From positions 1 through 14,646 of the forward strand of contig JAGAAF010000047.1 in the NCBI GenBank assembly GCA_017615435.1: a DNA stretch of 14,646 nucleotides, read 5' to 3'. Origin of the DNA: Bacteroidales bacterium (GTDB lineage: Bacteria; Bacteroidota; Bacteroidia; Bacteroidales; UBA932). The notes under the pieces are model-generated. The model did not search any database. It worked only from the letters and a program-made list of their open reading frames with translations, and was not told where the DNA came from. The stretch's first letter is position 1. Each line of letters opens with the position of its first letter. Position numbers and translations under genes: made by a program. Positions 1-14,646 of this stretch are shown piece after piece.

Positions 1-155
1 AAGGCGCATGTGCGCCTTTACAGAAACAAGGTTGTAATTGTTCGCTCACATTATCGCCGCGTGTGGATACGCAAATAATGTTTGAGCGATAGTTCCAACA
101 AGGAACTTCTACCCGACCTGACGCCCCAGGGGAGAGCTTAGTCTCTCCCTTTTTT
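1..155 (+). ncRNA. Probable structured non-coding RNA, 3' part (cut by window start)
   Basis: No convincing reading frame lies here, but the plus strand folds into consecutive hairpins. Bases 1-8 pair with 11-18. A long stem pairs 42-54 with 75-89, with a two-base bulge at 81-82, and encloses an inner stem (59-62 with 69-72). A perfect 6-bp hairpin pairs 91-96 with 102-107 across a 5-base loop, and a terminator hairpin with a T run follows at 130-155. An extended rod followed by a small hairpin on its 3' side recalls 6S RNA, and Bacteroidales carry terminator-ended RNAs such as Bacteroidales-1; both identities are from memory and unproven. No -7 box is seen in 1-40, so the 5' end probably lies before the window. 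The alternative is a set of unrelated hairpins after an upstream gene. The hairpins are seen; transcription is inferred. Confidence 0.5.
130..155 (+). terminator. Intrinsic terminator of the left-edge RNA
   Basis: A 7-bp perfect stem (130-136 with 143-149, GGGAGAG/CTCTCCC) with a 6-base loop is followed directly by six T. The T run lies only on the plus-strand 3' side, so it ends plus-strand transcription and does not terminate luxS, whose stop codon is at 157-159. Confidence 0.82.
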
Positions 156-156
156 A

Positions 157-651
157 TTACGCGTCGGCGAAGGTTTTGCCGTCCGACAAAACTACCTGTA
201 ACTTGGTGTATTCGGAGTGGAAGTCGTTAACTAAACGGTCCAGATAGCGGGCGGCTTCCCATTTGCACATCGGGAGGTCGTGCAACATATAATTCCCGCA
301 GGTTTGGGGTTCGGTGGCTGGGACGTGGTCCTGCGAGAGAATCCAGCGAAGGCACTCGCAGGTCAGGCGGCGCATATCTTCGACCGAATAAGTTCCGGTC
401 ATAACGATGTACATCCCTGTGAGGCAGCCCATCGGCCCGACATAGACGACATCGTCCTTAGCAGCGGAGTTGCGAAACCAGGTGGCCATCAAGTGCTCCA
501 GGCTGTGCATTGCGGCTGGGGCGACGGCGGGTTCCTTGTTCGGCTCGGTGATGCGGAGGTCGAAGGTGGTGAAGCCCTTGTCCTGGCGGCTCACATAAAT
601 GCCCGGCTTAAGATGTGTATGGTCTATGGTGAAACTCTGAATGACTTCCAT
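157..651 (-). CDS. luxS: S-ribosylhomocysteine lyase LuxS
   Basis: LuxS cleaves S-ribosylhomocysteine to homocysteine and DPD, the precursor of autoinducer-2, in the cytoplasmic activated-methyl cycle. The 164-residue product has the usual family length. The metal-binding motif HSLEH is at residues 49-53 (His49, His53, with Glu52 as the likely catalytic acid/base). The GPMGC motif with the catalytic Cys76 is at 72-76, and a third metal-ligand-type Cys118 sits in TCGNY. The N-terminal stretch SFTIDHTHLKPG is typical of the family. It is the last gene of a minus-strand run, starting two bases after the stop of the preceding membrane-protein gene, with no promoter between them, so it is probably cotranscribed. 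No terminator follows on this strand; the next hairpin faces the other way. Family assignment is secure; a signalling role, as opposed to simple detoxification, cannot be read from sequence. Confidence 0.98.
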   Translation of the reverse strand: MEVIQSFTIDHTHLKPGIYVSRQDKGFTTFDLRITEPNKEPAVAPAAMHSLEHLMATWFRNSAAKDDVVYVGPMGCLTGMYIVMTGTYSVEDMRRLTCECLRWILSQDHVPATEPQTCGNYMLHDLPMCKWEAARYLDRLVNDFHSEYTKLQVVLSDGKTFADA

Positions 652-653
652 AA

Positions 654-1160
654 TTAACCTTTCTTGTTCAGAAGATAAATCACGCCTATGATCAGCGCCG
701 CAACGAGACCATAGGTGACGATACCGTTGAACAGACCTTCGTGATTCATCCTGAACCAGAAGATTCCGTAGTTTATGGCGAACAGAAGCACACCTCCGGC
801 CAAGGCGATTACCAATCCCCAGACCGTGCCGCCGACATTGTTCTCCCAGGTGTTTTCCTTGAAGGACTTGACTAAAAGATATACGAACGGAATCAATCCG
901 ACCATTATCGAGATAATCAGCGCGATCATCATTTTGTTATGCTTCACGGCCTGCGCCTCTTCGGACTTCTGCTTGGTTTCTTCGAAACGGTCGAGCAAAG
1001 CCTGTTCCTGCGGGGTCAGGTATTGTTCGTACAGTTTGGTGATGTCGTCGTCCTGGGCATAGGCTGACGCGCAAAAGACACCCGATCGGGTCGGTGATGA
1101 CACACAAACAGAGAACGTCGCCAGAGCTCCGGCGATCAATAGTATCAGTATCTTTTTCAT
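654..1160 (-). CDS. Small membrane protein with signal peptide and three membrane segments
   Basis: I do not recognise a named family. The 168-residue product begins with a hydrophobic export signal that probably ends near ASAYAQ (residues 31-36). A short charged, Glu/Lys/Gln-rich amphipathic stretch (about 48-73) that could form a coiled coil comes next, followed by three predicted membrane segments (about 77-97, 111-136 and 145-165) and a basic C-terminal tail (NKKG). The ATG at 1160 is chosen because it overlaps the upstream stop codon (ATGA, 1157-1160), an arrangement typical of translational coupling; a start nine bases further upstream is possible. It lies between a secreted EF-hand protein and luxS. 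A function linked to luxS is not implied beyond cotranscription. The topology is inferred from hydrophobicity only. Confidence 0.8.
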   Translation of the reverse strand: MKKILILLIAGALATFSVCVSSPTRSGVFCASAYAQDDDITKLYEQYLTPQEQALLDRFEETKQKSEEAQAVKHNKMMIALIISIMVGLIPFVYLLVKSFKENTWENNVGGTVWGLVIALAGGVLLFAINYGIFWFRMNHEGLFNGIVTYGLVAALIIGVIYLLNKKG

Positions 1161-1609
1161 CGGTACCAAATAGAATTCGGATCGTTATCGTTATAAACAC
1201 GCTTGACGGTCAGCGAGCCTTCCGAGTTGGGCGTGACCAGTTGCGGATAGCAGCCAACCGCGAGCACGAGCGTCTTCAAAAGCGGGCTTTGTACCGCCAC
1301 GAACTCCAGTTTGTAATTGGCGGACAGGTCCACATCCTGAATATCGCTTTCCCCGAGCCAGACCTTCTTCAGATTGGGAAACTTCTGCAGGTCTTCGTAG
1401 GTCTTGACCTCGAAGATGTGGGAACGGTACACGGTGAGGTTCAGCACGGTCAGCGAATCGGCTTCAACCTTTGACAGTACGCCGTCGCCGTTGCGGTCTC
1501 CGGCCTTCAGCGCGCAGCGCAGCACCTCCGGATCCGCGAACTTCAGCTCCTGCGCAAACGCGTTGAAACTGAGCAGCGCCAGGACGGCAATGAATAGGAT
1601 TTTCTTCAT
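1157..1609 (-). CDS. Secreted EF-hand and leucine-rich-repeat-like protein
   Basis: The 150-residue product has a signal peptide ending near FNAFAQ (residue 20). Residues 38-49 form a textbook EF-hand loop (Asp38, Asn40, Asp42, Gly43, Leu45, Ser46, Glu49), so calcium binding is likely. The following part reads as short leucine-rich repeats (about 60-118, with blocks like LKKVWLGESDIQDVDLS), a pattern common in Bacteroidales exported proteins, where an EF-hand precedes LRR-type repeats. At 150 residues it is short for that group, with only two or three repeats. The ATG at 1609 is preferred over one 21 bases upstream, because a minus-strand -7 box (1630-1637) would overlap the earlier start. 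It is first in a unit with the membrane protein and luxS. The ligand or surface partner is unknown. Confidence 0.82.
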   Translation of the reverse strand: MKKILFIAVLALLSFNAFAQELKFADPEVLRCALKAGDRNGDGVLSKVEADSLTVLNLTVYRSHIFEVKTYEDLQKFPNLKKVWLGESDIQDVDLSANYKLEFVAVQSPLLKTLVLAVGCYPQLVTPNSEGSLTVKRVYNDNDPNSIWYR

Positions 1610-1629
1610 AAACTGATGTGGTTTCTCCA

Positions 1630-1637
1630 CAAAGATA
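1630..1637 (-). promoter_or_regulatory. Bacteroidota -7 element for the luxS operon
   Basis: The minus strand reads TATCTTTG, an exact match to TAnnTTTG, 20 bases before the ATG at 1609. No good -33 TTTG is visible. It sits back to back with the dsbD promoter, two bases away. Confidence 0.6.
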
Positions 1638-1639
1638 AT

Positions 1640-1647
1640 TATATTTG
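1640..1647 (+). promoter_or_regulatory. Bacteroidota -7 element for dsbD
   Basis: TATATTTG matches TAnnTTTG exactly and ends seven bases before the dsbD ATG at 1655, which leaves only a few bases of 5' leader. The -33 region is weak. Confidence 0.6.
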
Positions 1648-1654
1648 AAGAACT

Positions 1655-3505
1655 ATGATGCTGTCTTTTCTGCTAGCGCTTTTGTTCCAGCTCGCTCCCG
1701 CCGTGGTGTGGGAGGCGAAGGTGGAACGTGCGGACAATGATAAGCTCGAACTGGTCATCACCGGAAAGGTGAGCGAAGGCTATTATATCCATCCTATGGC
1801 GGACAAAGCGGTCGGCGTAAGCCTGGAGCTGGCGGATGGCGTGATCCCGCTGGGCGAGCCGGTAGAGCAATACGAGCCGGCGGACTACAAGGGCGTGGAA
1901 GTGGTCACGGGCACATACGTGCTACGGCAGGCCGTCGATGCCAAAGGTGCGGCCGTGAAGGGCACGGTCACCTGGAGCGTGTGCCACGGTGACGAATGCG
2001 AAGCGCCGGAGGACTACGACTTCAGTGTCGCGCTGCCCGAAGCGGAAAAGATCCCCGATCAGGTCGGGGATGAAGTAAAAACATCTCTATGGTCCCTGGT
2101 GCTGGAGGCAATCATATGGGGCCTGCTGATGCTGCTGACGCCGTGCGTGTTCCCGATGGTGCCGATGACGGTGTCGTTCTTCCTCAGGCAGAGCGGCTCC
2201 CCGAGGCAGGGGCGCTTCAAGGCGGCGATGTACGGCTTGTTCATCGTGCTGCTGTACACCGTGCCGATAAGCGTAATCATAGGCCTGACGTGGGCTGTGG
2301 GCGGATCCACGGTCACGGCGGACATCTTCAACTGGCTCAGCACGCACTGGCTGCCGAACATAATCTTCTTCCTCGTGTTTATGGTCTTCGCCGCTTCGTT
2401 CTTCGGAGCTTTCGAGATCGTGCTGCCGTCGTCGTGGACGAACAAGGCCGATGCGGGTAGCGAACGTAAGGGTCTGCTGGGCGTGTTCTTTCTCGCACTC
2501 ACGCTCGTGCTCGTGAGCTTCAGCTGCACCGGCCCGATCGTGGGCACGGTCCTTATCAAGAGCACGCAGGGCGAGTTCTGGGCCCCTATGGTCACTATGC
2601 TCGCGTTCAGCATAGCCTTCGCTTTGCCGTTCACGCTGTTCGCGTTCTTCCCGTCCGTGCTGTCGAAACTTCCGCGCAGCGGCGGTTGGCTTAACAGCGT
2701 AAAGGTCACGCTCGGCTTCATCGAAATCGCGCTCGGCCTGAAGTTCCTCAGCGTGGCGGACCAGACCTACCACTGGCACCTGCTGGACAGGGACATCTAT
2801 CTCGCTATATGGATTATCTGCTTCACCCTGCTGGGATTATACCTCCTGGGGCTGATTAAATTTAAATACGACACCCCCATAAAAAAGTTTTCAGTCGGCC
2901 GTATCGCGCTGATTATCATTGACTTTGCGTTCGTGGCGTATATGATACCCGGAATGTGGGGTGCGCCGCTGAAGGCCCTGAGCGGATACCTTCCGCCGAT
3001 GGAAACACAGCACATCAGGCTCGGAAAGTACGCGCCCGCGGCGGGGGAGAGCGTCGTGCTGCCTGGCACGGTGACCGGTAACGTGGTCGCGCTGCCGCAC
3101 GGGCTGACCGGCTACGACAACCTGCCCGACGCCCTGGCCGCCGCGGCCGCATCCGGAAAGAAAGTCTTCGTGGACATAACCGGCCACGGCTGCGTGAACT
3201 GCCGCGAAATGGAAGCCCGCGTGTGGAGCGATCCGGAAGTGCTGCAGCGGCTCAGGGACAACTTCATCATCGTTTCGCTATATGTGGACGATAAAACTCG
3301 TCTGCCGCAGGACAAATGGGTTACCACCCCTTCAGGCAAGGTCCTGAAAGACGTCGGCCGCGTGAACGCCCGGCTCGTGCTGGATCGCTTCGGCGTGAAC
3401 TCCCAGCCGAACTACTTCATACTTGACGCCGAAGGCCGCACCCTCGCCGGTCCTCGCGGCTATAATCTCGATCCCGTCGCCTTCGCAGCATTCCTCGACC
3501 AATGA
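1655..3505 (+). CDS. dsbD: Thiol:disulfide interchange protein DsbD (three-domain)
   Basis: DsbD carries reducing power from cytoplasmic thioredoxin across the inner membrane to periplasmic thiol proteins. All three cysteine pairs are present in the 616-residue product. The N-terminal periplasmic domain (about 18-128) has Cys110 and Cys115. The membrane domain (about 146-435, roughly eight helices) has Cys164 in TPCVFPM and Cys291 in SCTGP. The C-terminal thioredoxin-like domain (about 460-616) has CVNC at 513-516 and a cis-proline segment near SQPNYF. Residues 1-16 look like a signal sequence. Two ATGs lie in tandem at 1655 and 1658; either could be used, both very close to the -7 box. The linker between the N-terminal and membrane domains carries a perfect DNA inverted repeat (2051-2071). 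The stop overlaps the HAD gene by four bases, so the two are translationally coupled. Confidence 0.95.
   Translation: MMLSFLLALLFQLAPAVVWEAKVERADNDKLELVITGKVSEGYYIHPMADKAVGVSLELADGVIPLGEPVEQYEPADYKGVEVVTGTYVLRQAVDAKGAAVKGTVTWSVCHGDECEAPEDYDFSVALPEAEKIPDQVGDEVKTSLWSLVLEAIIWGLLMLLTPCVFPMVPMTVSFFLRQSGSPRQGRFKAAMYGLFIVLLYTVPISVIIGLTWAVGGSTVTADIFNWLSTHWLPNIIFFLVFMVFAASFFGAFEIVLPSSWTNKADAGSERKGLLGVFFLALTLVLVSFSCTGPIVGTVLIKSTQGEFWAPMVTMLAFSIAFALPFTLFAFFPSVLSKLPRSGGWLNSVKVTLGFIEIALGLKFLSVADQTYHWHLLDRDIYLAIWIICFTLLGLYLLGLIKFKYDTPIKKFSVGRIALIIIDFAFVAYMIPGMWGAPLKALSGYLPPMETQHIRLGKYAPAAGESVVLPGTVTGNVVALPHGLTGYDNLPDALAAAAASGKKVFVDITGHGCVNCREMEARVWSDPEVLQRLRDNFIIVSLYVDDKTRLPQDKWVTTPSGKVLKDVGRVNARLVLDRFGVNSQPNYFILDAEGRTLAGPRGYNLDPVAFAAFLDQ
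2051..2071. repeat. Perfect 8-bp inverted repeat inside the dsbD linker
   Basis: Bases 2051-2058 (ATCCCCGA) and 2064-2071 (TCGGGGAT) are perfect inverted copies around a five-base centre. In frame it encodes IPDQVGDE (residues 133-140), in the hydrophilic linker between the DsbD N-terminal and membrane domains. From memory, similar PDQVRDD-type peptides are encoded by dispersed short palindromic repeats in many bacteria. Only this copy occurs in the window. Confidence 0.6.
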
Positions 3506-4107
3506 TAAGCACCATCATATTCGATTTCGGAGGGGTTCTGGTAGACTGGGACCCGCATAGGATGCTGGACGGGTATTTCGGCAGCCGGCAGAAGGCGGAC
3601 TGGTTCATCGCGAACATCTGCACGAGCGAGTGGAACGCGGAAATGGACGCGGGCAAACCGTTCGCTCAGGGAATAGCCGAACTCTCAGCAATTCATCCGG
3701 AATGGGCGCACGAAATCCAGCTTTACTACGACCGTTGGATCGAGATGATAGGCGATCAGATTCCCGGTATGGAGGACCTGCTGCGCGAGCTGAAAGCCCG
3801 CGGTTACCGCCTCTATGGCCTCACCAACTGGTCGGCGGAAACGTTCTGCCTGGTGCGCCACCGTTTTCCCGTGTTCGACCTGCTGGACGGTATGCTCGTC
3901 TCTGGCGAGGAACATATGCTCAAGCCGGCTCCAGAATTCTTCCAACTGCTTGTGGACCGCTTCGGGTTGAATCCGGCAGAGAGCATTTTCATCGACGACA
4001 ACCAGCCCAATGTGGACGGCGCCATCGCCTTTGGCATCAATGCCATCAGGTTCGAGAATGCCGAAACCCTGCGACGACAATTAAAAACACTGCTATATGA
4101 AAACTAA
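3502..4107 (+). CDS. HAD-superfamily hydrolase, YihX-like sugar-phosphate phosphatase type
   Basis: This 201-residue product is a cytoplasmic haloacid-dehalogenase-type phosphatase. Motif I is FDFGGVLVDWD with nucleophile Asp8; the residue two positions on, often the general acid Asp, is Gly10, as I recall for E. coli YihX, an alpha-D-glucose-1-phosphate phosphatase. Motif II is LTN (Thr108), motif III is the Lys141 of LKPAPEFF, and motif IV is FIDDN (Asp165/Asp166) followed by VDGAIAFGINAI, close to the YihX pattern. The region between residues 17 and 88 forms the helical cap. The ATG overlaps the dsbD stop by four bases, and the 3' end overlaps the next gene by 11 bases. Family assignment is firm; the substrate is an inference. 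Confidence 0.92.
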   Translation: MISTIIFDFGGVLVDWDPHRMLDGYFGSRQKADWFIANICTSEWNAEMDAGKPFAQGIAELSAIHPEWAHEIQLYYDRWIEMIGDQIPGMEDLLRELKARGYRLYGLTNWSAETFCLVRHRFPVFDLLDGMLVSGEEHMLKPAPEFFQLLVDRFGLNPAESIFIDDNQPNVDGAIAFGINAIRFENAETLRRQLKTLLYEN

Positions 4108-4915
4108 CCACGCCCTCCTTATTGTTGCCGCTTGCCTCTGTCTGGCAGGTTGCAAACAGAGCACAGAGTATCCGCCCGTGAAGTCGATATCTCTCGAATA
4201 CCCGAGTTTGTCGGCTTACGAGGAATCCTGGAACTGCAATTATGATTCAGAAGGCCGCCTGAAGCTGGTGGAGAAAAAGGAGGTCGCTGACAAGGAGAAG
4301 CATCTTATGTCGTGGAGTTATGCCTACGATGCAGAAGAACTTAAGGCTGTGAGCGAAGCGAAGGGGTGGAGAAAATCCCGTACCGCCTCCGTTGCCTTCC
4401 AGGACGACTTCACCCATATGCTTTCGTACACACTTCCGGAAGACACTGAGGAGGATGAGTACGGTATCGTTTTCCTGGGGCAGAACTGGGTGGCCACTTA
4501 CGACGCCGGCCGCTTGACAAAAGCCGTGTTCACCGATTTCACTTCCGACGGAATGGATATCAGTATGTTTACCTGGGGCGAAGACGGCCTTCTCGTCAAA
4601 TACGAGGGCTCCGACCCCGGAGTGTTCATTGAAATCAAGGATATAGAATATCTCGAGACGCCCAATCCTTTCAAGGGACCCGATCCCGTTGCGCTCATAA
4701 TGGGAATGAACTCATTCTATTGGCAGGGCTTCGCTGGTCCCAGACCTGCATCCCTGGTGGCGGGCTACACCCGGGTGACGAGCGACCCCTGGGTTGAGGA
4801 TGTCTCAATAGACCATATCTCGATTACTTACGAAACCGACCTCGACGGCCGCATTTCACACATCGTCCAGACTGCGAACGGAGTGCTGGAAAATGTTGCC
4901 GTTATTACTTACTAG
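4097..4915 (+). CDS. Predicted lipoprotein of unknown function
   Basis: The 272-residue product starts with a lipoprotein signal ending in LAGC (Cys19), so it is predicted to be lipid-anchored at the periplasmic or outer face. The mature part contains short beta-type stretches with a Y-D-x-x-G-R-L pattern (NYDSEGRL near residue 49, TYDAGRL near 134 and YETDLDGRI near 246). This resembles the beta-hairpin repeats of Bacteroidales DUF4595-like lipoproteins or YD repeats; I cannot assign it firmly. It overlaps the end of the HAD gene by 11 bases and is followed four bases later by the nuclease lipoprotein, so it belongs to the same transcription unit. No catalytic motif is visible. Confidence 0.82.
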   Translation: MKTNHALLIVAACLCLAGCKQSTEYPPVKSISLEYPSLSAYEESWNCNYDSEGRLKLVEKKEVADKEKHLMSWSYAYDAEELKAVSEAKGWRKSRTASVAFQDDFTHMLSYTLPEDTEEDEYGIVFLGQNWVATYDAGRLTKAVFTDFTSDGMDISMFTWGEDGLLVKYEGSDPGVFIEIKDIEYLETPNPFKGPDPVALIMGMNSFYWQGFAGPRPASLVAGYTRVTSDPWVEDVSIDHISITYETDLDGRISHIVQTANGVLENVAVITY

Positions 4916-4919
4916 CATT

Positions 4920-6587
4920 ATGAAGAAATTTTTAATACTGGCCCTGGCGGTCCTGATTCCATTCTGGGCCTGCGAAGAATTCGGCATTCAGAATCCCCTT
5001 GATCCCGGAACGGGGGAGCAGGTGGACACCACCGGCACTAACGTCCCCATAGACACTACCGGTACAGATGTCCCTATAGACACCACGGGCACCGTGACCC
5101 CTCCCGGCCCTGACACTCCTCCCGGCCCCGATACCCCGCCCGTTGTTGAGCCCGAATCCGTGGTCATTTTCGCCGAGGACTTCGACGGCAACACCTCCTA
5201 CACCGGTTATATGTCGAATTCCGACTGGTATAATTACTCCGGCGAGGATGTCGAGCACGTGACTTACGACACGTGGAATTCAAGTATCCGTAACGACAAT
5301 TATGGCAGCGCGGGCAAGTACGAAGGAGCCTCCGGCCAGTGCTACGGCCGCCTCATTCAGGCAAACAGCGGCAATATGGGCTACTGGACCGTAAACGGTA
5401 TCGGCACCTGCGGGTACAAAGACTTCAAGTTCAGTTTCGGCGCCGAGCAGAGTACGGATGTAATGACCTTCGAGTGGAGCGTGGACGGTACCACCTGGCA
5501 CGCCATTGCCTACGAATTCACCCTGGCGTATGACAAATGGGAAAGGGTAAGCGGCAGCTTCTCCATTCCGGAGGGATCGAAGACCCTTTCGTTGAAGTTC
5601 ACGCTTATAGGCCCGAAAGACACGTATAAATACGGCGCGAACCTTGACGATATTCTCATCGAGTCGGCAGGGGAGGCATCTACTCCCGGCGAGGATCCCG
5701 GAACCCCTTCCGGCCAGATCAATGGCTACATCGAGTGCCCGGCAAGCGTGGCGAACTCCGATTACTACTACAACACGCTCTATACTCACACGGTAAGGAC
5801 CAATAAGGCCGTCCGCAACTTCTCCTTCTGCTATGACACCCGCCGCCACAACCCCATCTGGGTGGCCTTCCCTATGCACGCCATCTATGCCGAAGGCTCC
5901 GGCCGCTCGAAGGACGAAAACGGCAACGACCCGTGGATGATGTATCCCGACCTGCCTCTGGACAAGCAGTCCATCATATGGGATATCGAAGGCGACGGCT
6001 ACCAGTACTGGTCAGCGACGTGTTCGATGCTTAACGGCGGAATGTGGACCAAAGGCCATCTGTGTATGTCCTCCAGCCGTTCCGGCGCGGGCAAGGAAAT
6101 CAACCTCCAGACCTTCTATCCGATCAACATCGCTCCGCAGTCGAACGCCTACTCCGGCATCTTCAGCGAGATATGGAGCAAGACCGAAGACCTTCACTGG
6201 CAGTACGGCTCCGAGGTCTGCTCCGACACCCTCTACGTGGTGGCCGGATGCCACTACGCCACCGACGCCAATGTCGAATACGACGCCTGCAGCTGGAATA
6301 ACCACAGCAGCCACTCCAAGCCTTGCGTGGTCCCTACTCATCAGTATAAACTGCTTCTCCGCACCCGCAGCGGCAACACCGGCAAGGCCATCCAGAACTG
6401 CAGCGCTTCCGAACTGAAGTGCATCGGCTTCTGGATGGATGCGGTAATCCCGAGCGGATCGTCCGAGGATCTTAAGGACTACGCGATGAGCGTGGCCGAC
6501 ATAGAAGCGATCACCGGCCTGACCTTCTTCCCGGGCGCCCCCGCCGCAGTAAAGAACCAATGTACCCCCTCCGACTGGGGCTTGTAG
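4920..6587 (+). CDS. Secreted lipoprotein with beta-sandwich-like region and DNA/RNA non-specific endonuclease domain
   Basis: The 555-residue product has a signal sequence with a probable lipid-attachment Cys18 (the lipobox FWAC is loose; acidic EE follows). A low-complexity Thr/Pro linker (about 34-78) contains tandem repeats. Residues about 80-250 look like a jelly-roll of the cleaved-adhesin/choice-of-anchor type (EDFDG start, late NLDDI). Residues about 285-540 match NUC1 endonucleases: GHL with the likely general base His380, QTFYPINIAPQ, VVAGCHY, and a C-terminal SVADIEAITGLTFF. The usual DRGH motif reads TKGH, and the metal-ligand Asn position after PQ is not clearly conserved, so activity is uncertain. 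About thirteen cysteines lie in the mature chain. The ATG at 4920 is preferred over one 27 bases upstream that would give a poor signal sequence. Likely role: degrading extracellular nucleic acids. Confidence 0.85.
   Translation: MKKFLILALAVLIPFWACEEFGIQNPLDPGTGEQVDTTGTNVPIDTTGTDVPIDTTGTVTPPGPDTPPGPDTPPVVEPESVVIFAEDFDGNTSYTGYMSNSDWYNYSGEDVEHVTYDTWNSSIRNDNYGSAGKYEGASGQCYGRLIQANSGNMGYWTVNGIGTCGYKDFKFSFGAEQSTDVMTFEWSVDGTTWHAIAYEFTLAYDKWERVSGSFSIPEGSKTLSLKFTLIGPKDTYKYGANLDDILIESAGEASTPGEDPGTPSGQINGYIECPASVANSDYYYNTLYTHTVRTNKAVRNFSFCYDTRRHNPIWVAFPMHAIYAEGSGRSKDENGNDPWMMYPDLPLDKQSIIWDIEGDGYQYWSATCSMLNGGMWTKGHLCMSSSRSGAGKEINLQTFYPINIAPQSNAYSGIFSEIWSKTEDLHWQYGSEVCSDTLYVVAGCHYATDANVEYDACSWNNHSSHSKPCVVPTHQYKLLLRTRSGNTGKAIQNCSASELKCIGFWMDAVIPSGSSEDLKDYAMSVADIEAITGLTFFPGAPAAVKNQCTPSDWGL
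5025..5135 (+). repeat. Coding tandem repeats in the nuclease linker
   Basis: Two 27-base units (5025-5051 and 5052-5078) encode DTTGTNVPI and DTTGTDVPI, and a third copy, starting at 5079, is broken off. Two 18-base units (5100-5117 and 5118-5135) encode PPGPDT. They form the flexible spacer between the lipid anchor and the folded domains and could vary in copy number between strains. Confidence 0.8.
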
Positions 6588-6590
6588 AAT

Positions 6591-7454: not shown

Positions 7455-7455
7455 T

Positions 7456-7463
7456 TAAATTTG
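7456..7463 (+). promoter_or_regulatory. Bacteroidota -7 element for the CBM9-like lipoprotein
   Basis: TAAATTTG matches TAnnTTTG exactly and lies just after the esterase stop (7452-7454), 20 bases before the ATG at 7484. No clear -33 element is present. Confidence 0.5.
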
Positions 7464-7483
7464 AACATTCAAAACATAGCGCA

Positions 7484-8221
7484 ATGAAAAAGCTTTTCAC
7501 TTTAATGGCGATTTTCGCCACACTCGCCGCAGCGGTTTGCTGCAATGAAGATAATCCTCCGAAAGGAGACGATGAGGAAGAAGAGGAAGAAGTAAACAAG
7601 GTCGCTATCACCATCGACGGCGAATTCGCTGACTGGGCTCTTCTTGAGAGGGGCTCATACGCGGTTGCTCAGAACGATCCGGATTCTCCCTGGCCGGCAG
7701 TCGAGCAAATTCGTGTCTATCCTACCTCTGAATTTGTTTTCTACTACATCAAGTTCAAGGAGGATACGCTCAATGAGCTTCTTGAGAATGAAGCAGAGGA
7801 ACTTCCCATCCGTCTTTGCATCAATACCGACAACGAGTTTACCACCGGCTACAAGAACTACTTCCTGGATCCCTACGACTTCATCGTCGAAGGAGCGCTT
7901 GCAGCCGAAGGCGCTTTCACCGATTATGTCGGCAATATCCACCAGAGGATAGGCGACTGGGTAGCATTCGAGGGCAATCCCGTGATGGGAAAGGGCGCCG
8001 GCAGTGAGTATGAAATTATGCTGGTCCGCGAACTCTTCAACGCCGCTATCGCCACCAGCGAGGTCCCTATGCCTCTCCGTGACACCCTCCAGACCGGTAT
8101 CCGCTTCTATTCCACCGGCGGCGGCTCTTGGGCCGAACTCTCCAATATGCCGAACACTGCCAAGGGTGACGGCGGCAACGGTTGGGGCCACCTCCTCGAG
8201 GTTGTCCTTCCTGCTGAATAA
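7484..8221 (+). CDS. Predicted lipoprotein with a CBM9/DOMON-like opening
   Basis: The 245-residue product has a lipoprotein-type signal ending at Cys19/Cys20 and then a very acidic spacer (residues 29-36, almost all Asp/Glu). The folded part starts with AITIDGEFADWA (41-52), the IDG-x-x-x-DW pattern seen at the start of CBM9-like carbohydrate-binding and related beta-sandwich domains, and ends with LLEVVLP, typical of a last beta strand. No catalytic residues are recognised. The ATG at 7484 is chosen because the upstream alternative at 7451 overlaps the -7 box and would add 11 residues before the signal sequence. It has its own promoter and a strong terminator, so it may be regulated apart from the esterase. 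Confidence 0.83.
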   Translation: MKKLFTLMAIFATLAAAVCCNEDNPPKGDDEEEEEEVNKVAITIDGEFADWALLERGSYAVAQNDPDSPWPAVEQIRVYPTSEFVFYYIKFKEDTLNELLENEAEELPIRLCINTDNEFTTGYKNYFLDPYDFIVEGALAAEGAFTDYVGNIHQRIGDWVAFEGNPVMGKGAGSEYEIMLVRELFNAAIATSEVPMPLRDTLQTGIRFYSTGGGSWAELSNMPNTAKGDGGNGWGHLLEVVLPAE

Positions 8222-8244
8222 TCCGTTTGTTCAACTTGACACAC

Positions 8245-8273
8245 AAAAAGCACCGCCCTCAGCGGTGCTTTTT
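8245..8273 (+). terminator. Strong intrinsic terminator, symmetric
   Basis: A 12-bp perfect stem (8245-8256 with 8262-8273) has a five-base loop, with A5 on the left and T5 on the right. It ends the CBM9-like lipoprotein transcript and would also work on the minus strand. Confidence 0.92.
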
Positions 8274-8327
8274 CTGATGTGAAGAAAGGGTGGGAGGAGT
8301 TAGGATAATTTTATTTCCAAAAATCAC

Positions 8328-8335
8328 TATATTTG
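8328..8335 (+). promoter_or_regulatory. Bacteroidota -7 element for the abiE pair
   Basis: TATATTTG matches TAnnTTTG exactly, 26 bases before the abiEi ATG. The -33 area is only AT-rich. AbiEi antitoxins are known to repress their own promoter through inverted repeats; I see no clean inverted repeat here. Confidence 0.6.
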
Positions 8336-8361
8336 CAGAGTTTTAGAAACAAATTAGCACG

Positions 8362-8979
8362 ATGGATTATCTGACATTCAGGGAACTGATGTATCCGATG
8401 GGGTGTTTCCACGTCAACCAGGTGTTGTTATGGGAGAAGGACTTCGACCGTAACAACCTCACGCGTTGGTGTCGGAAGGGTCGGCTGCTGAAGCTGCGCA
8501 ACCAGTACTACGCCTTCCCCGAATGTGCCTCAAAGCCGGACTTTGCCCGTTATGTGGCTAACCGCATCTATGCGCCTTCCTACATCAGCTTGCACAGCGC
8601 GCTGTCGTTCTATGGGATGATTCCGGAGGAGGTGGTGCAGATCACCAGCGTCACCACGCTCAAGACGGCCCGGTTCCAGAACGATTTCGGCACTTTCCAT
8701 TACCAGAACGTGAAGACGCCACTCTATTTCGGCTATGAGATAAAGATTACCTCAAACGGGCGGGGCATCCTGTTCGCCACCCCGGAAAAAGCGCTGCTTG
8801 ACCTGCTCTACCTGAATCCGTACTACAAGACGGAGCAGGATATGGAGGAACTCCGCCTGGATGAAGACTTTATGCAGAATGAGTTCAACCGGGAACGCTT
8901 TGCCGATTACCTCACCCGTATTGGGAGCAAGGCGCTGGAGCAGAGGACGCGCCGATTATTAAAGGTTTACGGCTTATGA
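8362..8979 (+). CDS. AbiEi-type antitoxin / autoregulator (type IV toxin-antitoxin)
   Basis: The 205-residue product matches AbiEi-like antitoxins: an N-terminal winged-helix region (about 1-55, ending in the LTRWCRKGRLLKLRNQYYAF wing), the conserved block IYAPSYISLHSALSFYGMIPE (about 69-89), then SVTT and a C-terminal ATPEKALLDLLYL segment (about 137-149). In known AbiE systems this protein represses the operon and counters the toxin without direct binding. The gene overlaps the toxin start by four bases (ATGA, 8976-8979), the usual coupled arrangement. No catalytic residues are expected. Codon use and CATG avoidance match the neighbours, so any transfer is not recent. Confidence 0.9.
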   Translation: MDYLTFRELMYPMGCFHVNQVLLWEKDFDRNNLTRWCRKGRLLKLRNQYYAFPECASKPDFARYVANRIYAPSYISLHSALSFYGMIPEEVVQITSVTTLKTARFQNDFGTFHYQNVKTPLYFGYEIKITSNGRGILFATPEKALLDLLYLNPYYKTEQDMEELRLDEDFMQNEFNRERFADYLTRIGSKALEQRTRRLLKVYGL

Positions 8980-9758
8980 TTGACATTGAATACATACGTA
9001 GTTTCTTCCCTACCGCCATTGCCCGCGAGAGCCGGTTCGACCGCTATATGCTGAAGGAGTATCTGCAGCTGCTGATCCTGGATCATCTGGCTACTACGCC
9101 TTACTTTGGCAAGCTGACGTTCATAGGCGGTACCAACCTCCGGCTGGTTCAGGGCATCGACCGCTTCTCCGAAGACTTGGACTTCGACTGCAATGATTTG
9201 AGCGAGGCCGATTTTATGGCGATGACGGATAGCGTGGTGCAATACCTCCGGCAGAACAACGTGGAGGTGGAGACGCGTGACAATCCCAATCCTCATCTGA
9301 CTGCATTCCGCCGTAATCTTTATTTCCCGCAAATGCTATTCAATCTGGGGTTGACTGGCCATCGTGACGAACGGCTGTTGGTGAAGATTGAGGCGCAGGA
9401 CCAGGGCGTGACGTATCGGCCCGTTGTGGCCAACATCAACAAAATGGGCTTCTTCTTCTGCGTCCAGGTGCCTCCTGTCGATGTGCTGTGCGCAATGAAG
9501 TTCGCCGCTATCCTTGCCCGCCAGAAGGGACGTGACTTCTACGATGCCATCTTCCTGCTCTCCAAGACAAAGCCCAATATGGATTTCCTCCGTGCAAGAG
9601 CCGGCATCTCTTCCGTGGAAGAGTTGAAGCTTGCCCTCACGAAGCTGTTGGGAGATGTTGATTTGAATCAGAAGAAACGCGACTTTGTGCATCTGCTTTT
9701 CAATGAATCGAACGCAGACCGAATCCTGCAATTCGAGGAAATCGTTGCAACACTATAA
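8976..9758 (+). CDS. AbiEii-type nucleotidyltransferase toxin
   Basis: The 260-residue product belongs to the AbiEii/AbiGii nucleotidyltransferase toxins, which attack a cellular target to block growth during phage infection. Motif I is GGTNLRL (51-57) and motif II is RFSEDLDFD (63-71), with the metal-binding acidic pair Asp67/Asp69. KIEAQ (near residue 134) and the K-x-AAILARQKGRDFYDA block (about 173-190) correspond to motifs III and IV, with their conserved Lys, Arg and Asp. All four are intact, so the toxin is predicted to be active. The gene is coupled to the antitoxin by a 4-base overlap. No terminator follows; a 19-codon frame starts 20 bases after its stop. Confidence 0.92.
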   Translation: MIDIEYIRSFFPTAIARESRFDRYMLKEYLQLLILDHLATTPYFGKLTFIGGTNLRLVQGIDRFSEDLDFDCNDLSEADFMAMTDSVVQYLRQNNVEVETRDNPNPHLTAFRRNLYFPQMLFNLGLTGHRDERLLVKIEAQDQGVTYRPVVANINKMGFFFCVQVPPVDVLCAMKFAAILARQKGRDFYDAIFLLSKTKPNMDFLRARAGISSVEELKLALTKLLGDVDLNQKKRDFVHLLFNESNADRILQFEEIVATL

Positions 9759-9777
9759 AGTAGTAAAAAGGAGCATT

Positions 9778-9837
9778 ATGATTAATCTATCTGAAACCTA
9801 CACATACGAGGACCGCAAGAAAATAAAGACTTGGTAA
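9778..9837 (+). CDS. 19-codon orphan reading frame after abiE (possible remnant)
   Basis: An ATG at 9778 opens a 19-residue frame (MINLSETYTYEDRKKIKTW) with a stop at 9835-9837. It is preceded by AAAAAGGAG, one of the few purine-rich Shine-Dalgarno-like sites in the window. It could be a small third gene of the abiE transcript or the decayed 5' end of a lost gene. The rest of 9759-9950 holds only AT-rich spacer and the promoter at 9915. Confidence 0.25.
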   Translation: MINLSETYTYEDRKKIKTW

Positions 9838-9914
9838 AGGCTTGAAAACGACAACATACAAATGCCTAGTACAACCACAAGAATAAGTGACCAATAGCGA
9901 CCGAGAAAAAGTAG

Positions 9915-9922
9915 TATATTTG
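9915..9922 (+). promoter_or_regulatory. Bacteroidota -7 element for the small membrane protein
   Basis: TATATTTG matches TAnnTTTG exactly and lies 28 bases before the ATG at 9951. No clear -33 element. Confidence 0.55.
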
Positions 9923-9950
9923 TATTTGATAAATCGGATTATATCGAAGG

Positions 9951-10436
9951 ATGACCTTTCTTATTGAATCACTGATTGCCTGCGCGATCTTTACGCTGTT
10001 CGTGTTCCTGATGTCCAGGAACCCGATTAAGAGTATCTTCAACTATCCTCCTGCGATTATCCGGCGATGTGATGAGTTGGGACTGGTGGATGCTAGCAAT
10101 AAGCCGGGTGGAGTGGCGTTTTATGTTAAGAAGTTGACGGCTATGGCGATCTTCGGAGTCCTGTTGGGGTTACTGGTCAAGTATGTGAACGGCTGCACGA
10201 CATTCGGGTGCGGCACCCTGACCGCCTACGCCCTGTGGGTCGTGGTCAACTGGTTCGATGCACTGATCCTGGATTGCATCTGGTTCTGTCACGACAAGCA
10301 TTTCGTCATTCCCGGAACGGAGGATATGACGGACGCCTATCACGACTACTGGTTCCACATCAAGGGCGCTCTGATCGGAATGGTCCTTGGGATACCTGCG
10401 GCCCTTGTGGCGGGTATTGTGGTGATAGTGTTATAA
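9951..10436 (+). CDS. Uncharacterised four-helix membrane protein with PGTE/YH motif
   Basis: I cannot name a family. The 161-residue product has a membrane segment at about 2-21 with an RNP end, a soluble loop (about 22-60), and further membrane segments at about 62-79, 88-110 and 138-161. Features that look constrained are VNWFDALILD (99-108, acidic residues inside or at the edge of a helix) and, on the loop before the last helix, PGTEDM with two histidines in AYHDYWFH (121-136). Polar and acidic residues beside helices suggest a transport or metal-binding role, but that is speculation. From memory, similar proteins with W-x-D and PGTE-x-M-x-x-AYH patterns occur in Firmicutes and Bacteroidota as hypothetical proteins. 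It has its own promoter and converges on the acyltransferase nine bases away, with no terminator between. Confidence 0.85.
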   Translation: MTFLIESLIACAIFTLFVFLMSRNPIKSIFNYPPAIIRRCDELGLVDASNKPGGVAFYVKKLTAMAIFGVLLGLLVKYVNGCTTFGCGTLTAYALWVVVNWFDALILDCIWFCHDKHFVIPGTEDMTDAYHDYWFHIKGALIGMVLGIPAALVAGIVVIVL

Positions 10437-10445
10437 ATCTGTCCT

Positions 10446-11504
10446 TTAGTGACGTCCTTTCCATTTTAGGGCGAACCAGTAAGAAATTGCGGCAATCGCA
10501 AGCGCCGGGAGGTAAGCCACCCAAGGATTGAGAGGCTTCAGTTCCAGGCCCATAAAAAGAGGAAGCCCTATCCAGCAGATAATTACCCAACTGATACAGT
10601 AGACTGCGGTGATTTTTTTGCTGAGTCCCTCAAGCGGCCTCATGATCCATTGCGGAAGAATCTTGCATAGTTGCCAGGCAATTGAGATTAACATTAGGTC
10701 AAGACAGATAAAGAAGAACCCGTCCGCAAGATTATGCCAATAATAGAGGCCTCCGGACAGGGGAGTGAAGCCCTTCTTCGCGATGAGCCAGCAATAGAAA
10801 AGGGTAATCGGTAGAGTCACGACCAGCACGCGCCTGTAGAGACGCTCCTTATCGGCGCACTTGGTGAGATAGCGGCCGGCGAGCAACCCCAACACCGGGT
10901 AGATAATCCAATGCGCGAACGGGAAGCACGAATAACAACTCTCTATGTCGCCGGGGCCTGCTCCGATGAAAAGCCCGAGCAGCGCGTTCAGCGCATCGCT
11001 TCCGCAGTCGAAACCCTGGCAAAGCGTTCCGCCGATGGAGCAGATCACGGCTATGGCGAGCATCAGCCAACCCTTCATCTTCAGCCTCAGGCATAGGCCT
11101 ATGAATAACAGCGCCAGTCCGGCGAACTGAAGGATATCCACGATCAAGAAGGCCATCACCAGATTATCGGCGACCGTATCTCCCAAGCCCAGCGCGAAAC
11201 CTATCCCGATAGGCAGTCCGGCTCTGAGGACGTTCAACAGATATGCCAGCACGAATAGCCGGACTCCGCGCCTCACCAGCGCTTGCGGGGTGCTCCTTCG
11301 GGAAAAGTTGATGGCAATCCCCATACAGATCATAAACATCGGGGCAGCCATCGGCCCGCCGAGTATCTCCTCTGCGACCACATATCCCGTATGGCCCGGA
11401 ACCGCGCCCATATAGCTGACCGTATGGCAAATGATCATCGCGATTATCGCGACCCCTTTCACGAGGTCCAGTTCCGCCAGCCTAGTCTTTGTTTCAGCTA
11501 TCAT
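10446..11504 (-). CDS. Polytopic membrane acyltransferase (acyltransferase-3 / HGSNAT-like)
   Basis: The 352-residue product has about ten membrane helices. Its N-terminus RLAELDLVKGVAIIAMIICHT (8-28) matches the opening helix of acyltransferase-3 and of heparan-alpha-glucosaminide acetyltransferase-like proteins (LD-x-x-[KR]G...H), including the helix-end His27. Such proteins move acyl groups across the inner membrane onto sugars of polysaccharide, peptidoglycan or lipid; the substrate here is unknown. The start at 11504 is chosen because a near-ideal promoter (-7 at 11510-11517) rules out the ATG at 11534, while the next Met is inside the conserved helix. That leaves almost no 5' leader. 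The gene stands alone and converges on the small membrane protein. Confidence 0.85.
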   Translation of the reverse strand: MIAETKTRLAELDLVKGVAIIAMIICHTVSYMGAVPGHTGYVVAEEILGGPMAAPMFMICMGIAINFSRRSTPQALVRRGVRLFVLAYLLNVLRAGLPIGIGFALGLGDTVADNLVMAFLIVDILQFAGLALLFIGLCLRLKMKGWLMLAIAVICSIGGTLCQGFDCGSDALNALLGLFIGAGPGDIESCYSCFPFAHWIIYPVLGLLAGRYLTKCADKERLYRRVLVVTLPITLFYCWLIAKKGFTPLSGGLYYWHNLADGFFFICLDLMLISIAWQLCKILPQWIMRPLEGLSKKITAVYCISWVIICWIGLPLFMGLELKPLNPWVAYLPALAIAAISYWFALKWKGRH

Positions 11505-11509
11505 ATAGG

Positions 11510-11541
11510 CAAAGATATCTCTATTCCTCCACAAAACAAAA
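11510..11541 (-). promoter_or_regulatory. Full Bacteroidota -33/-7 promoter of the acyltransferase gene
   Basis: On the minus strand TTTTG (11541-11537), a 19-base spacer and TATCTTTG (11517-11510) match both parts of the consensus. The -7 box ends five bases before the ATG at 11504, predicting a near-leaderless mRNA. Confidence 0.75.
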
Positions 11542-11578
11542 GCGCCGCATAGACGCGGGATGGTCTAAGAAAAGTTTG

Positions 11579-11586
11579 TAGATTTG
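11579..11586 (+). promoter_or_regulatory. Bacteroidota -7 element for the FKBP gene
   Basis: TAGATTTG matches TAnnTTTG exactly, 20 bases before the ATG at 11607. It makes the alternative upstream ATG at 11586 untenable. No -33 TTTG is seen. Confidence 0.6.
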
Positions 11587-11606
11587 TGTGGATATTTACA
11601 CTTTCT

Positions 11607-12191: not shown

Positions 12192-12202
12192 ATATTAATT
12201 GC

Positions 12203-12232
12203 TTGTATTTCAGGAGGAAGTGCTTATCTTAG
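12203..12232 (+). promoter_or_regulatory. -33/-7 promoter of the lipoprotein/beta-barrel operon
   Basis: TTG (12203-12205), a 19-base spacer and TATCTTAG (12225-12232; one mismatch to TAnnTTTG) precede the ATG at 12248 by 15 bases. Confidence 0.55.
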
Positions 12233-12247
12233 CAAAAAATAGAACTC

Positions 12248-12817
12248 ATGAAAAGAATATTTATTGCTTTGACAATTGTGGCGGCGCTGTTGCCTTCCTG
12301 TAAGAAGGGAGGAGATGATTCCGGCACAAGTGAATCATCAGCTTTGGTCGGTTCTCCCGCCACGGTAATCTCCATTACTGATACGGGTTCTCACAACGAG
12401 GGCTCTGCCTTTATGTATAAGAGCGCTCAAACTCTCTATTTCCTCCTGTGTGAGGGCAAGGCGACTTCCTGGAACGACGGTCTGCGACTTCCGCATCTGG
12501 AGATTCACATCTGGGAAGCCCTGGTCAAGGACGACGCGATGGCCTTTGCCAACCCGGACAATGCCATCGATATCAACGGTTCAGACCCTAAGGTCTATGT
12601 CTGCTGGAAAGCGGGTAATGGCCACAACTTCTTCGACAAGAACAACTATGCGGTCGCTCCCGGGGTGAACTATCAGTTCGAAAGCGGATCATTGTCTGTC
12701 GCCAAGGTGATGGGTATGTATATGATAGCGTTCCAAGGACTTTGCGCCGATGATAAGGGGGCTTACAGTCCCGGATGGAGTTATTCCGGATCGTTCACCT
12801 ATAGTTCAAGGAAGTAA
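12248..12817 (+). CDS. Predicted lipoprotein of unknown function
   Basis: The 189-residue product has a lipoprotein signal ending in LLPSC (Cys18), then a Lys/Gly/Asp/Ser linker (19-33). The mature part (34-189) is rich in aromatic residues and beta-prone, with segments such as SAQTLYFLLCEG and LPHLEIHIWEAL; no known motif is recognised. It is first in a three-gene unit, with one base between its stop and the next ATG, and the two following genes encode outer-membrane barrels, so a surface or periplasmic partner role is plausible but unproven. Its ATG is one of only five CATG sites in the window. Confidence 0.82.
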   Translation: MKRIFIALTIVAALLPSCKKGGDDSGTSESSALVGSPATVISITDTGSHNEGSAFMYKSAQTLYFLLCEGKATSWNDGLRLPHLEIHIWEALVKDDAMAFANPDNAIDINGSDPKVYVCWKAGNGHNFFDKNNYAVAPGVNYQFESGSLSVAKVMGMYMIAFQGLCADDKGAYSPGWSYSGSFTYSSRK

Positions 12818-12818
12818 T

Positions 12819-13520: not shown

Positions 13521-13524
13521 TATT

Positions 13525-14181
13525 ATGAAAAAACTACTGGTATTAGTGATTGCCCTTGCCACGGGCATTTCAGTTTTTGCACAAACCGAGTCGCAAAGCG
13601 ACTCTAACGTAGGCTTCAGCGTGGGAGCCGGTATTATTACGGCTCAGCAGAAAGGCTCCACAACCATGATGGGCACAACCACCAACTCCACTTCGTCAGG
13701 CCCCGGCTTCTACATCAATCTTGGTTTTAACAGCGACCTTGGACTTGGTGGGCTCGGATATACGATGGACATCTTCTTTGATCATTGGGCCCTGTCTGAC
13801 GACGCAGGTTCTTCCGATGCCGTCGCGAGAGAGAATTATATAGGCTTTGCGACGGCCATCAACGTCCCCCTCAAAGCCTCGGAAACCCTCTGGCTGCAGC
13901 CGTTCTTCGGCCCCGGCTATGCCTGGGGTTTGAGTTCGAAGACCACTTGGACCAATCCTATCACCAATCAGGAAGAGGTCTTGGATAACTACGATGAAGA
14001 CACTCACTATCAGCGCCAGTATGCCTACCTTACAGTCGGAGCGGACATCCTTCTCAAGTCCCTGCACCTCCGCCTGAGGGGCTCGGTAGACTTTGGTATG
14101 TGGGACCGCTACGGCAGCGTCAAGGAAATCAACGCCAAGGACGGCCCTAACTTCCGTCTTGGCATGGCGTATCTGTTCTAG
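13525..14181 (+). CDS. Outer-membrane beta-barrel protein, second of a tandem pair
   Basis: The 218-residue product has a signal peptide ending SVFAQ (residue 20), then a Ser/Thr/Asn-rich stretch (about 38-58) that probably forms an external loop or plug. It ends with a classical barrel signal for BAM recognition, FRLGMAYLF, with a terminal Phe. Strand-like blocks include VGFSVGAGIITA, GFYINLGFNS, LWLQPFFGPGYAWG, YAYLTVGADIL and LRLRGSVDFGMWD. It is not a close copy of the preceding barrel: sequence similarity is slight, so an old duplication or simple co-recruitment are both possible. It is last in the operon and is followed by a terminator. Confidence 0.87.
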   Translation: MKKLLVLVIALATGISVFAQTESQSDSNVGFSVGAGIITAQQKGSTTMMGTTTNSTSSGPGFYINLGFNSDLGLGGLGYTMDIFFDHWALSDDAGSSDAVARENYIGFATAINVPLKASETLWLQPFFGPGYAWGLSSKTTWTNPITNQEEVLDNYDEDTHYQRQYAYLTVGADILLKSLHLRLRGSVDFGMWDRYGSVKEINAKDGPNFRLGMAYLF

Positions 14182-14226
14182 TCCAGGGACTCTTTGGAGC
14201 GTAATAATAGCGCTCAAGGCGCAAAT

Positions 14227-14254
14227 AAGAGCAGCGGGTCACGCTGCTCTTTTT
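14227..14254 (+). terminator. Intrinsic terminator of the lipoprotein/beta-barrel operon
   Basis: A perfect stem pairs AAGAGCAGCG (14227-14236) with 14242-14251 across a five-base loop and ends in a T run, 46 bases after the barrel stop codon. Confidence 0.92.
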
Positions 14255-14300
14255 GTGCCTCGGGCGGGAGCTAGAAACTGGTGGCTATTGAAGGTTTTGT

Positions 14301-14318
14301 CTATCAATTGGTTGATAG
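14301..14318. repeat. Inverted repeat CTATCAA/TTGATAG, with further copies downstream
   Basis: A 7-bp perfect inverted repeat (14301-14307 and 14312-14318) surrounds TTGG. The same heptamer recurs at 14365-14371 and, inverted, at 14465-14471 just before the parD ATG. The four copies in 171 bases suggest protein-binding sites. Confidence 0.5.
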
Positions 14319-14382
14319 AATCACCAGTATGTTCAAATAATGAGCGAAGAATGCGACCAAAAATCTATCAATGCGAGTTGGT

Positions 14383-14412
14383 CCACATTTTTGTGGTCCA
14401 CAATATTGTGGA
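14383..14412. promoter_or_regulatory. Two adjacent CCACA palindromes upstream of parD (candidate operators)
   Basis: CCACA-tttt-TGTGG (14383-14396) is followed immediately by a perfect 16-base palindrome, TCCACAATATTGTGGA (14397-14412). Side-by-side sites fit cooperative binding by ribbon-helix-helix repressors such as ParD, but they lie about 35 bases above the -7 box, so another regulator is possible. Confidence 0.5.
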
Positions 14413-14431
14413 GTGAATATATAGTTACACC

Positions 14432-14455
14432 ATATAAGAATATTTCTTATATTTG
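14432..14455 (+). promoter_or_regulatory. parD -7 promoter element inside a palindrome
   Basis: A perfect 9-bp inverted repeat (14432-14440 with 14444-14452, three-base centre) overlaps the -7 box TATATTTG (14448-14455), which lies 18 bases before the parD ATG. A protein bound here would block the promoter, as expected for antitoxin autorepression. Confidence 0.6.
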
Positions 14456-14473
14456 TGACAAATATTGATAGAA

Positions 14474-14646
14474 ATGAAAACAACTACTGTTGCATTAGGA
14501 ACTCATTTTGACGAGTTTGTCCAGGCGAGTGTTCTTGGTGGTCGCTATACAAATGCCAGTGAGGTGATTCGTGCCGGGCTCAGGAGGCTGGAGGAGGATG
14601 AGCAAAAGATAGCAGCTCTCCGTGCTGCCATAGAGGAAGGTGAAGC
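14474..14646 (+). CDS. parD: ParD-type antitoxin, 5' part (cut by window end)
   Basis: The first 57 codons are present. They follow the ParD/CopG ribbon-helix-helix antitoxin pattern: a short beta strand with TTVALGTHFDEFV, a GRYTNASEVIRAGLRRLEE helix block (about 24-42) and the start of the toxin-binding tail, EDEQKIAALRAAIEEGE. Full family members are about 80-95 residues and usually precede a ParE toxin gene, which would lie beyond the window. ParD binds DNA as a dimer and represses its own operon; palindromes overlap its promoter. The ATG at 14474 is the only start consistent with the family N-terminus and the -7 box. Confidence 0.9.
   Translation, partial: MKTTTVALGTHFDEFVQASVLGGRYTNASEVIRAGLRRLEEDEQKIAALRAAIEEGE

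Follow-up and report, generated by a model that had tools for sequence, protein, structure and literature searches.

Near-absence of CATG from a Bacteroidales contig, a probable trace of Type II restriction–modification

Why should a stretch of bacterial DNA be almost emptied of a single tetranucleotide? The question is raised by contig JAGAAF010000047.1 of the Bacteroidales assembly GCA_017615435.1, whose 14,646 nucleotides were analysed as one stretch (the window) and hold only a handful of copies of the palindrome CATG. We consider it very probable that a Type II restriction–modification system acting on CATG explains this loss. The lineage of the window would have carried, and perhaps still carries, such a system; imperfect methylation would occasionally expose CATG to the cell's own nuclease, and variants losing the site by silent change would have been favoured until few remained. 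Self-cutting would then be the selective agent, exerted by a system that the window's own genome presumably had. Some of the relatives that have lost CATG carry one of two kinds of restriction-type genes, the first resembling NlaIII and the second an unannotated gene pair, here called R2/C5.

Loss of CATG in the window

An exact count returned the same five CATG sites, and no others, that the initial annotation had read from the sequence, together with the same CATG-free stretch (Table 1). The estimates made there by eye also held, namely about 55 CATG from composition (56.5 computed from base composition), about 200 ATG (221 counted) and about seven CTAG (7 counted, Markov ratio 0.32). In the Markov-corrected tetranucleotide count that it had called for, of maximal order (CAT × ATG / AT) and based on the window's own trinucleotides, with 191 CAT among them, CATG stands at 5 against 47.5 expected. 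This ratio of 0.105 is the lowest of all 256 tetramers, and the Poisson probability of five or fewer sites is 5e-15. CATG is also the sole tetramer of the window that lies far off the norm of its relatives (z −4.6, with the next tetramer at −2.6). The window thus shows the strong under-representation after Markov correction that is expected of an avoided Type II site.

It equally shows the loss through synonymous change that selection would bring about, as seen in three codon-phase tests over 17 open reading frames (ORFs) of the window and in the mixture of replacements. Histidine is never encoded by CAT when G follows (0 of 20 codons, against 32 of 68 otherwise; P = 3e-5). C precedes a methionine codon hardly ever, as had been claimed from the sequence (3 of 114, against 109 of 275 before isoleucine; P = 2e-16), and NCA codons are missing when TG follows (0/31) whereas they make up 22 of 143 when another T does. 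Synonymous avoidance in every codon phase therefore speaks against an amino-acid effect, and about 90% of the window's CATG sites have been lost through silent changes.

The routes of loss can be followed in the locus L003 of a close relative, whose 24 CATG sites aligned to the window over about 3.6 kb have all been replaced, by 13 different tetramers, in a comparison in which the median tetramer is kept at 36%. Six became CGTG/CACG, five TATG/CATA, five CAGG/CCTG and eight others; although the numbers are small, they include transitions at several positions as well as transversions. None of 6 sites of locus L001 and none of 7 of locus L002 is kept either. So wide a range of replacements makes one common mutational route less likely and points instead to selection favouring whatever change destroys CATG.

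CATG and restriction genes in relatives

The DsbD-like protein of the window is 82–84% identical to those of three rumen Bacteroidales metagenome-assembled genomes (MAGs; loci L001–L003). By these sequence comparisons the window appears to come from an uncultured rumen-type Bacteroidales bacterium with rumen Bacteroidales MAGs as its nearest kin. The genome of L001 and genome G003 agree in genus by the first members listed, and the window probably belongs to that genus too.

The CATG ratios of 80 related loci span 0.09 to 1.12; most of these loci are poor in CTAG but not in CATG. The 70 loci of at least 12 kb have a median of 0.86, with 3 below 0.25 and 10 below 0.5 (2 and 9 of 68 without L056 and L074, which belong to carriers of the genes described below). 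On a DsbD tree built by a quick method from the window and these 70 loci (71 rows, loci under 12 kb being left out), the 11 rows with CATG below 0.5 require 11 changes, the maximum that 11 low rows can give. No low-CATG state is demonstrably common by descent; low ratios appear on isolated tips. The nearest tree neighbour of the window, L003, has a ratio of 0.91 (joining branch with a Shimodaira–Hasegawa-like approximate likelihood ratio, SH-aLRT, of 91, unstarred), and additional stretches gave 0.82 for the genome of L001 (G018), 0.94 for that of L003 (G019) and 0.45 (44/98) for that of L002 (G008). Such patchy, tip-by-tip loss fits a mobile Type II restriction–modification system, not a lineage-wide mutational habit. 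With CATG near normal in a close relative, nearly gone from the window and independently low in other lineages, the pattern suggests that the loss is fast.

GCATGG counts are patchy in the same way among 299 genomes of the family, with several hundred per Mb common and about 10–20 per Mb in eight. In samples of 8–60 kb the CATG ratio was 0.00–0.09 for seven of these genomes and 0.48 for the eighth, G220. When further contigs were added, including ones with restriction genes, the ratio rose from 0.04 to 0.15 in G238, from 0.03 to 0.14 in both G054 and G259, and from 0.09 to 0.13 in G158. The longest stretch, 820 kb of G158 (C1:1-820000), holds 51 CATG against 1960 expected (ratio 0.026), with no 5-kb bin above 4; two 20-kb samples elsewhere on that contig hold 10 and 2. 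Certain contigs of avoiding genomes are richer in CATG (L284 of G955, L231 of G238, L227 and L239 of G054, L230 of G259), and some of these bear restriction or methyltransferase genes; within avoiders, CATG density could be a sign of newly gained DNA or of errors in binning.

The first gene set involves the family PF05315 (ICEA), of which we take NlaIII to be a member. Matches above cut-off were found in 1 of 50 genomes (G014) and 1 of 393 (G755), and sub-cut-off matches in G579 and G638 were left out of the carrier lists. D12 methyltransferases occur in 98 of 299 genomes. Of five stretches retrieved from these, the three that were read, from G333, G230 and G328, are all NlaIII-type; the 98 may include more carriers. 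In G755, G333, G230 and G014 a PF05315-like nuclease gene, a D12 methyltransferase gene and a further methyltransferase gene lie close together, the D12 gene adjoining the PF05315 gene in G014 and G755. G333 and G230 were assigned by ORF likeness, and G328 shows the methyltransferase only, its contig ending there. CATG observed/expected is 2/133 in G755 (0.02), 8/211 in G328 (0.04), 17/273 in G333 (0.06), 92/234 in G230 (0.39) and 166/268 in G014 (0.62). These carriers were not chosen blind to CATG: G014 and G755 came from the PF05315 searches, with a locus ratio of 0.58 known beforehand for G014; the low CATG of G328 was known before its gene was read; and for G333 and G230, selected by the length of their methyltransferases, the GCATGG counts had been inspected in advance. 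Knowledge of the family, together with the loss of CATG, leads us to infer that the NlaIII-type genes of these relatives cut CATG.

The second gene set emerged from C5 methyltransferases, which occur in 18 of 40 genomes searched. One kind is common to G206 and G003 (66% identity), each copy beside a gene for an unannotated protein of about 270 amino acids (about 273), R2; the G003 enzyme bears an N-terminal HTH_17 domain. It was their common C5 gene, together with avoidance of CATG in both, that drew attention to these two genomes. With R2 as the query, matches were found in 3 of 299 genomes (G206, G166 and, weakly, G125) and in 2 of 325 (G003 and G955). The match in G125 (E = 2e-4; CATG ratio 0.91) was left out of the carrier lists, and in G166 and G955 a C5 gene of the same make lies near R2. 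The methyltransferase and putative nuclease genes are thus side by side in all four carriers (L234, L232, L265 and L283), with one ORF between them in L265. CATG is low in each: 0/105 in G206 (0.00), 54/501 in G955 (0.11), 23/135 in G166 (0.17) and 39/189 in G003 (0.21). G166 and G955 were found by gene and then measured; against a background in which 3 of 70 loci have ratios under 0.25, the chance that two out of two would do so is about 0.002, although the GCATGG count of G166 (222 in 2.2 Mb) had already been tabulated before the R2 search. The contigs of G955 differ among themselves (0/83, 0/75, 1/82, 3/71, 15/73 and 15/86, and 20/28 on a 3.7-kb contig).

In the four R2/C5 carriers CATG stands alone, with a mean z of −6.2 and the next tetramer at −1.6. 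All ten NCATGN contexts are low in these four and in the three NlaIII-type carriers, of five, for which they were counted; the per-class counts of the window are too small to judge. Neighbour-tetramer spectra did not separate the two groups of carriers. R2 itself, a candidate PD-(D/E)XK nuclease, matched no family in Pfam, NCBIfam or PADLOC, apart from one sub-cut-off match to RPN7 (E = 0.046); its profile found nothing among solved structures, a fold search gave weak matches only, and a search of viral contigs gave one pattern match and no relative. One relative of R2, P0069, carries PF00145. Two neighbouring genes were also observed, a Vsr gene (PF03852) near R2/C5 of G166 (L265:7772-8320, minus strand) and, beside R2/C5 in G206, an ORF (L232:5774-6400, minus strand) that resembles PF05315 weakly (E = 7e-4) and also matches PADLOC REase_II (3e-14).

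From this association we predict that R2/C5 is a CATG restriction–modification system, which would be new, and the same loss of CATG in relatives may point to an unannotated enzyme family that cuts it. A broader proposal, which we hold to be evenly balanced between right and wrong, is that the HTH-fused C5 methyltransferase and R2 form an undescribed system in which 5-methylcytosine (m5C) protects CATG from a new nuclease family that cuts it. Alongside the NlaIII-type and at least one further system, it would move between gut Bacteroidales and repeatedly wipe out CATG within the time separating related species, the remaining clusters of CATG marking recently acquired DNA.

Other candidates were tried and set aside. 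One of them, which may yet act on CATG, is a MutH-domain nuclease (PF02976) with a C5 methyltransferase in G238 and G005; enzymes of the MutH/Sau3AI type are known for GATC, and CATG in G005 is only moderately low (0.49 over 35.6 kb). The gene next to D12 in G001, which is EcoRV-like, the phage-like methyltransferase loci of G001 and the orphan N6_N4 gene of G003 left the loss of CATG across genomes unexplained. Also dropped was the C5 gene of G007, an identical copy being present in G036, whose locus L032 has a ratio of 0.97. Other palindromes are lost from single relatives in the same patchy manner as CATG: ACGT is at 0 in L072 and L077, AGCT at 0.11 in L064 and GATC at 0 in L080, 0.07 in L077, 0.10 in L066 and 0.11 in L012, and GGCC and CCGG are also almost missing in G001. 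The stretch fetched for G076 was all N.

Weighing the explanations

Being specific to CATG, synonymous, confined to single tips and accompanied by restriction genes in relatives, the loss supports selection by a long-standing restriction system, the reading that the initial annotation had put first. Its call for a CATG-type restriction or methyltransferase gene had a divided outcome, with NlaIII-type genes in five relatives and none in the ORFs of the window.

Several observations weigh against this explanation. Pfam scans of the 17 window ORFs found no restriction or methyltransferase family. Two of the five NlaIII-type carriers avoid CATG only in part, at 0.39 and 0.62, and CATG does not stand alone in the five (mean z −4.8, followed by CCGC at −4.2, which is due to G755). 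Some rarer tetramers were likewise never kept in the window, for example AGTC in 0 of 12 cases against L003. Only G328 and G206 of the eight genomes lowest in GCATGG have a candidate set by the D12 and R2 searches, PF05315 not having been searched by name there. Six avoiders (G222, G054, G238, G259, G220 and G002) carry other methyltransferases and, by the searches made, neither candidate set; methyltransferase genes are borne by the further avoiders G099 and G279 as well. G158 gave no D12, C5 or R2 match, only a sub-cut-off N6_N4 match and one MmeI-like Type IIG gene, and in its 820 kb neither a motif scan nor phmmer searches with five candidate proteins brought up a DNA methyltransferase or a nuclease candidate. 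In such avoiders the systems have been lost, lie in missing parts of the MAGs or are of further kinds. Finally, the passages of PMC10423294 drawn on here describe CATG as the highest-density motif studied in Helicobacter pylori, even though every genome there has M.HpyI, and report no significant effect of nuclease frequency; avoidance is thus not a necessary consequence of a CATG system.

A mutational or repair bias that destroys CATG, by deamination of m5CATG to TATG or through a Vsr-like mismatch enzyme, was the other reading offered from the sequence, and we regard it as improbable. TATG is indeed the biggest gain in the window (ratio 1.31, where 51 non-avoiding loci average 0.92), and the Vsr gene lies beside R2/C5 in G166. 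Yet deamination predicts TATG/CATA only, whereas the sites of L003 went many ways, by transitions and transversions, and AATG, GATG and CGTG rise too (1.08, 1.38 and 1.11 against 0.84, 1.25 and 0.99 in the same loci). NlaIII-type carriers lose CATG alike, although N6-methyladenine (m6A) is expected in them by analogy with M.HpyI as described in part of PMC10423294, and the bias would itself require a CATG-specific enzyme.

Avoidance unconnected with restriction, through codon-pair bias, regulation or DNA structure for instance, seems to us slightly less probable still. CTAG, low in most relatives, offers a precedent, as we know of no restriction cause for it. Against this, near kin of similar composition have CATG near 1, with the low state on single tips, and CATG is scarce in the carriers of both restriction-type gene sets, which are unrelated to each other. 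Chance, miscounting or an assembly artefact is practically negligible, given the Poisson probability and the agreement of the exact count with the earlier reading; the loss is moreover a synonymous one, met again in other assemblies over as much as 820 kb.

Within the restriction–modification explanation, and as a question of timing rather than an alternative to it, the system may be gone and the window a decaying relic, to which we tentatively assign somewhat less than an even chance. L002 and its genome G008, at 0.45, have no match to PF05315, D12, N6_N4, N6_Mtase or C5, the strong avoider G158 shows that avoidance without a candidate gene exists, and traces of lost systems are described in the text cited from Rusinov et al. 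(PMC4687349). The window's 0.11, on the other hand, falls within the range of carriers, 0.00–0.62.

Window features and known systems

Table 1. Coordinates of CATG sites and other features in the window
Feature	Position	Strand	Remark
Whole window	1..14646	.	CATG 5 observed, 47.5 expected
CATG site 1	7..10	.	Lies outside the 17 ORFs used
CATG-free stretch	11..10640	.	10.6 kb
CATG site 2	10641..10644	.	Inside acyltransferase ORF 10446-11534 (-)
CATG site 3	12247..12250	.	Overlaps ATG start codon of ORF 12248-12817 (+)
CATG site 4	13665..13668	.	Inside ORF 13525-14181 (+)
CATG site 5	14163..14166	.	Inside ORF 13525-14181 (+)
DsbD-like gene	1655..3505	+	Used for placing window among relatives

CATG is unevenly spread in the window, with one site against 36.8 expected in 1-10640 and four against 11.1 in 10641-14646; the higher density over the final 4 kb may have arisen by chance or reflect DNA gained more recently. 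Pfam families in the window include LuxS, DsbD, HAD hydrolase, Endonuclease_NS, esterase, AbiEii, acyltransferase, FKBP and an outer-membrane barrel. A PADLOC scan of 10 of the 17 ORFs found AbiEi and AbiEii only. AbiEi (PADLOC E = 3.8e-77) adjoins AbiEii (PADLOC 1.6e-101; PF08843 1.9e-18) at 8362-9758 on the plus strand, and together they are a type IV toxin–antitoxin or abortive-infection pair.

Avoidance of Type II sites, and its survival after the system is lost, is established according to the parts of PMC4687349 and PMC10359461 used here. The text cited from Rusinov et al. 2015 (PMC4687349) puts orthodox Type II sites as avoided in about 50% of 1774 cases, with avoidance possibly outlasting the system, and Type IIG sites as not avoided in the vast majority of cases. 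A term search of the main text of that paper found no word beginning CATG or Bacteroid, and we found no report of CATG avoidance in Bacteroidales in the open-licence literature. The phenomenon of site avoidance is familiar, and the window adds a new and strong instance to it; the R2/C5 pair, as a predicted system, is the new element. Strong loss of a single tetramer reveals the restriction history of uncultured bacteria without methylation data. In the present case the trail ended at an unannotated gene pair whose predicted specificity, of 4 bp, lends itself to an ordinary digestion assay.

As in the cases described by Rusinov et al. (PMC4687349, as far as cited here), a palindrome is depleted, patchily between close relatives and also without a present system; unlike in them, the depletion concerns one site, at ratios of 0.00–0.1, in several uncultured Bacteroidales. 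The NlaIII and iceA1–HpyI system (PF05315, ICEA) is matched by the same gene types in relatives and was not found in the window, and whereas CATG is the densest motif in H. pylori (in the passages of PMC10423294 considered), it is almost gone from three of the five NlaIII-type genomes. Like UpaP162 of Ureaplasma parvum, which cuts CATG, R2 has no recognisable nuclease domain, a likeness by description (PMC6191088). U. parvum, in that same account, has N4-methylcytosine (m4C) and m6A, no m5C, and keeps 1,450 CATG, whereas R2 pairs with a C5 methyltransferase. In its putative pairing of nuclease and methyltransferase R2/C5 resembles Type II systems, and with m5C at CATG it would differ from the m6A and m4C CATG systems of the papers cited.

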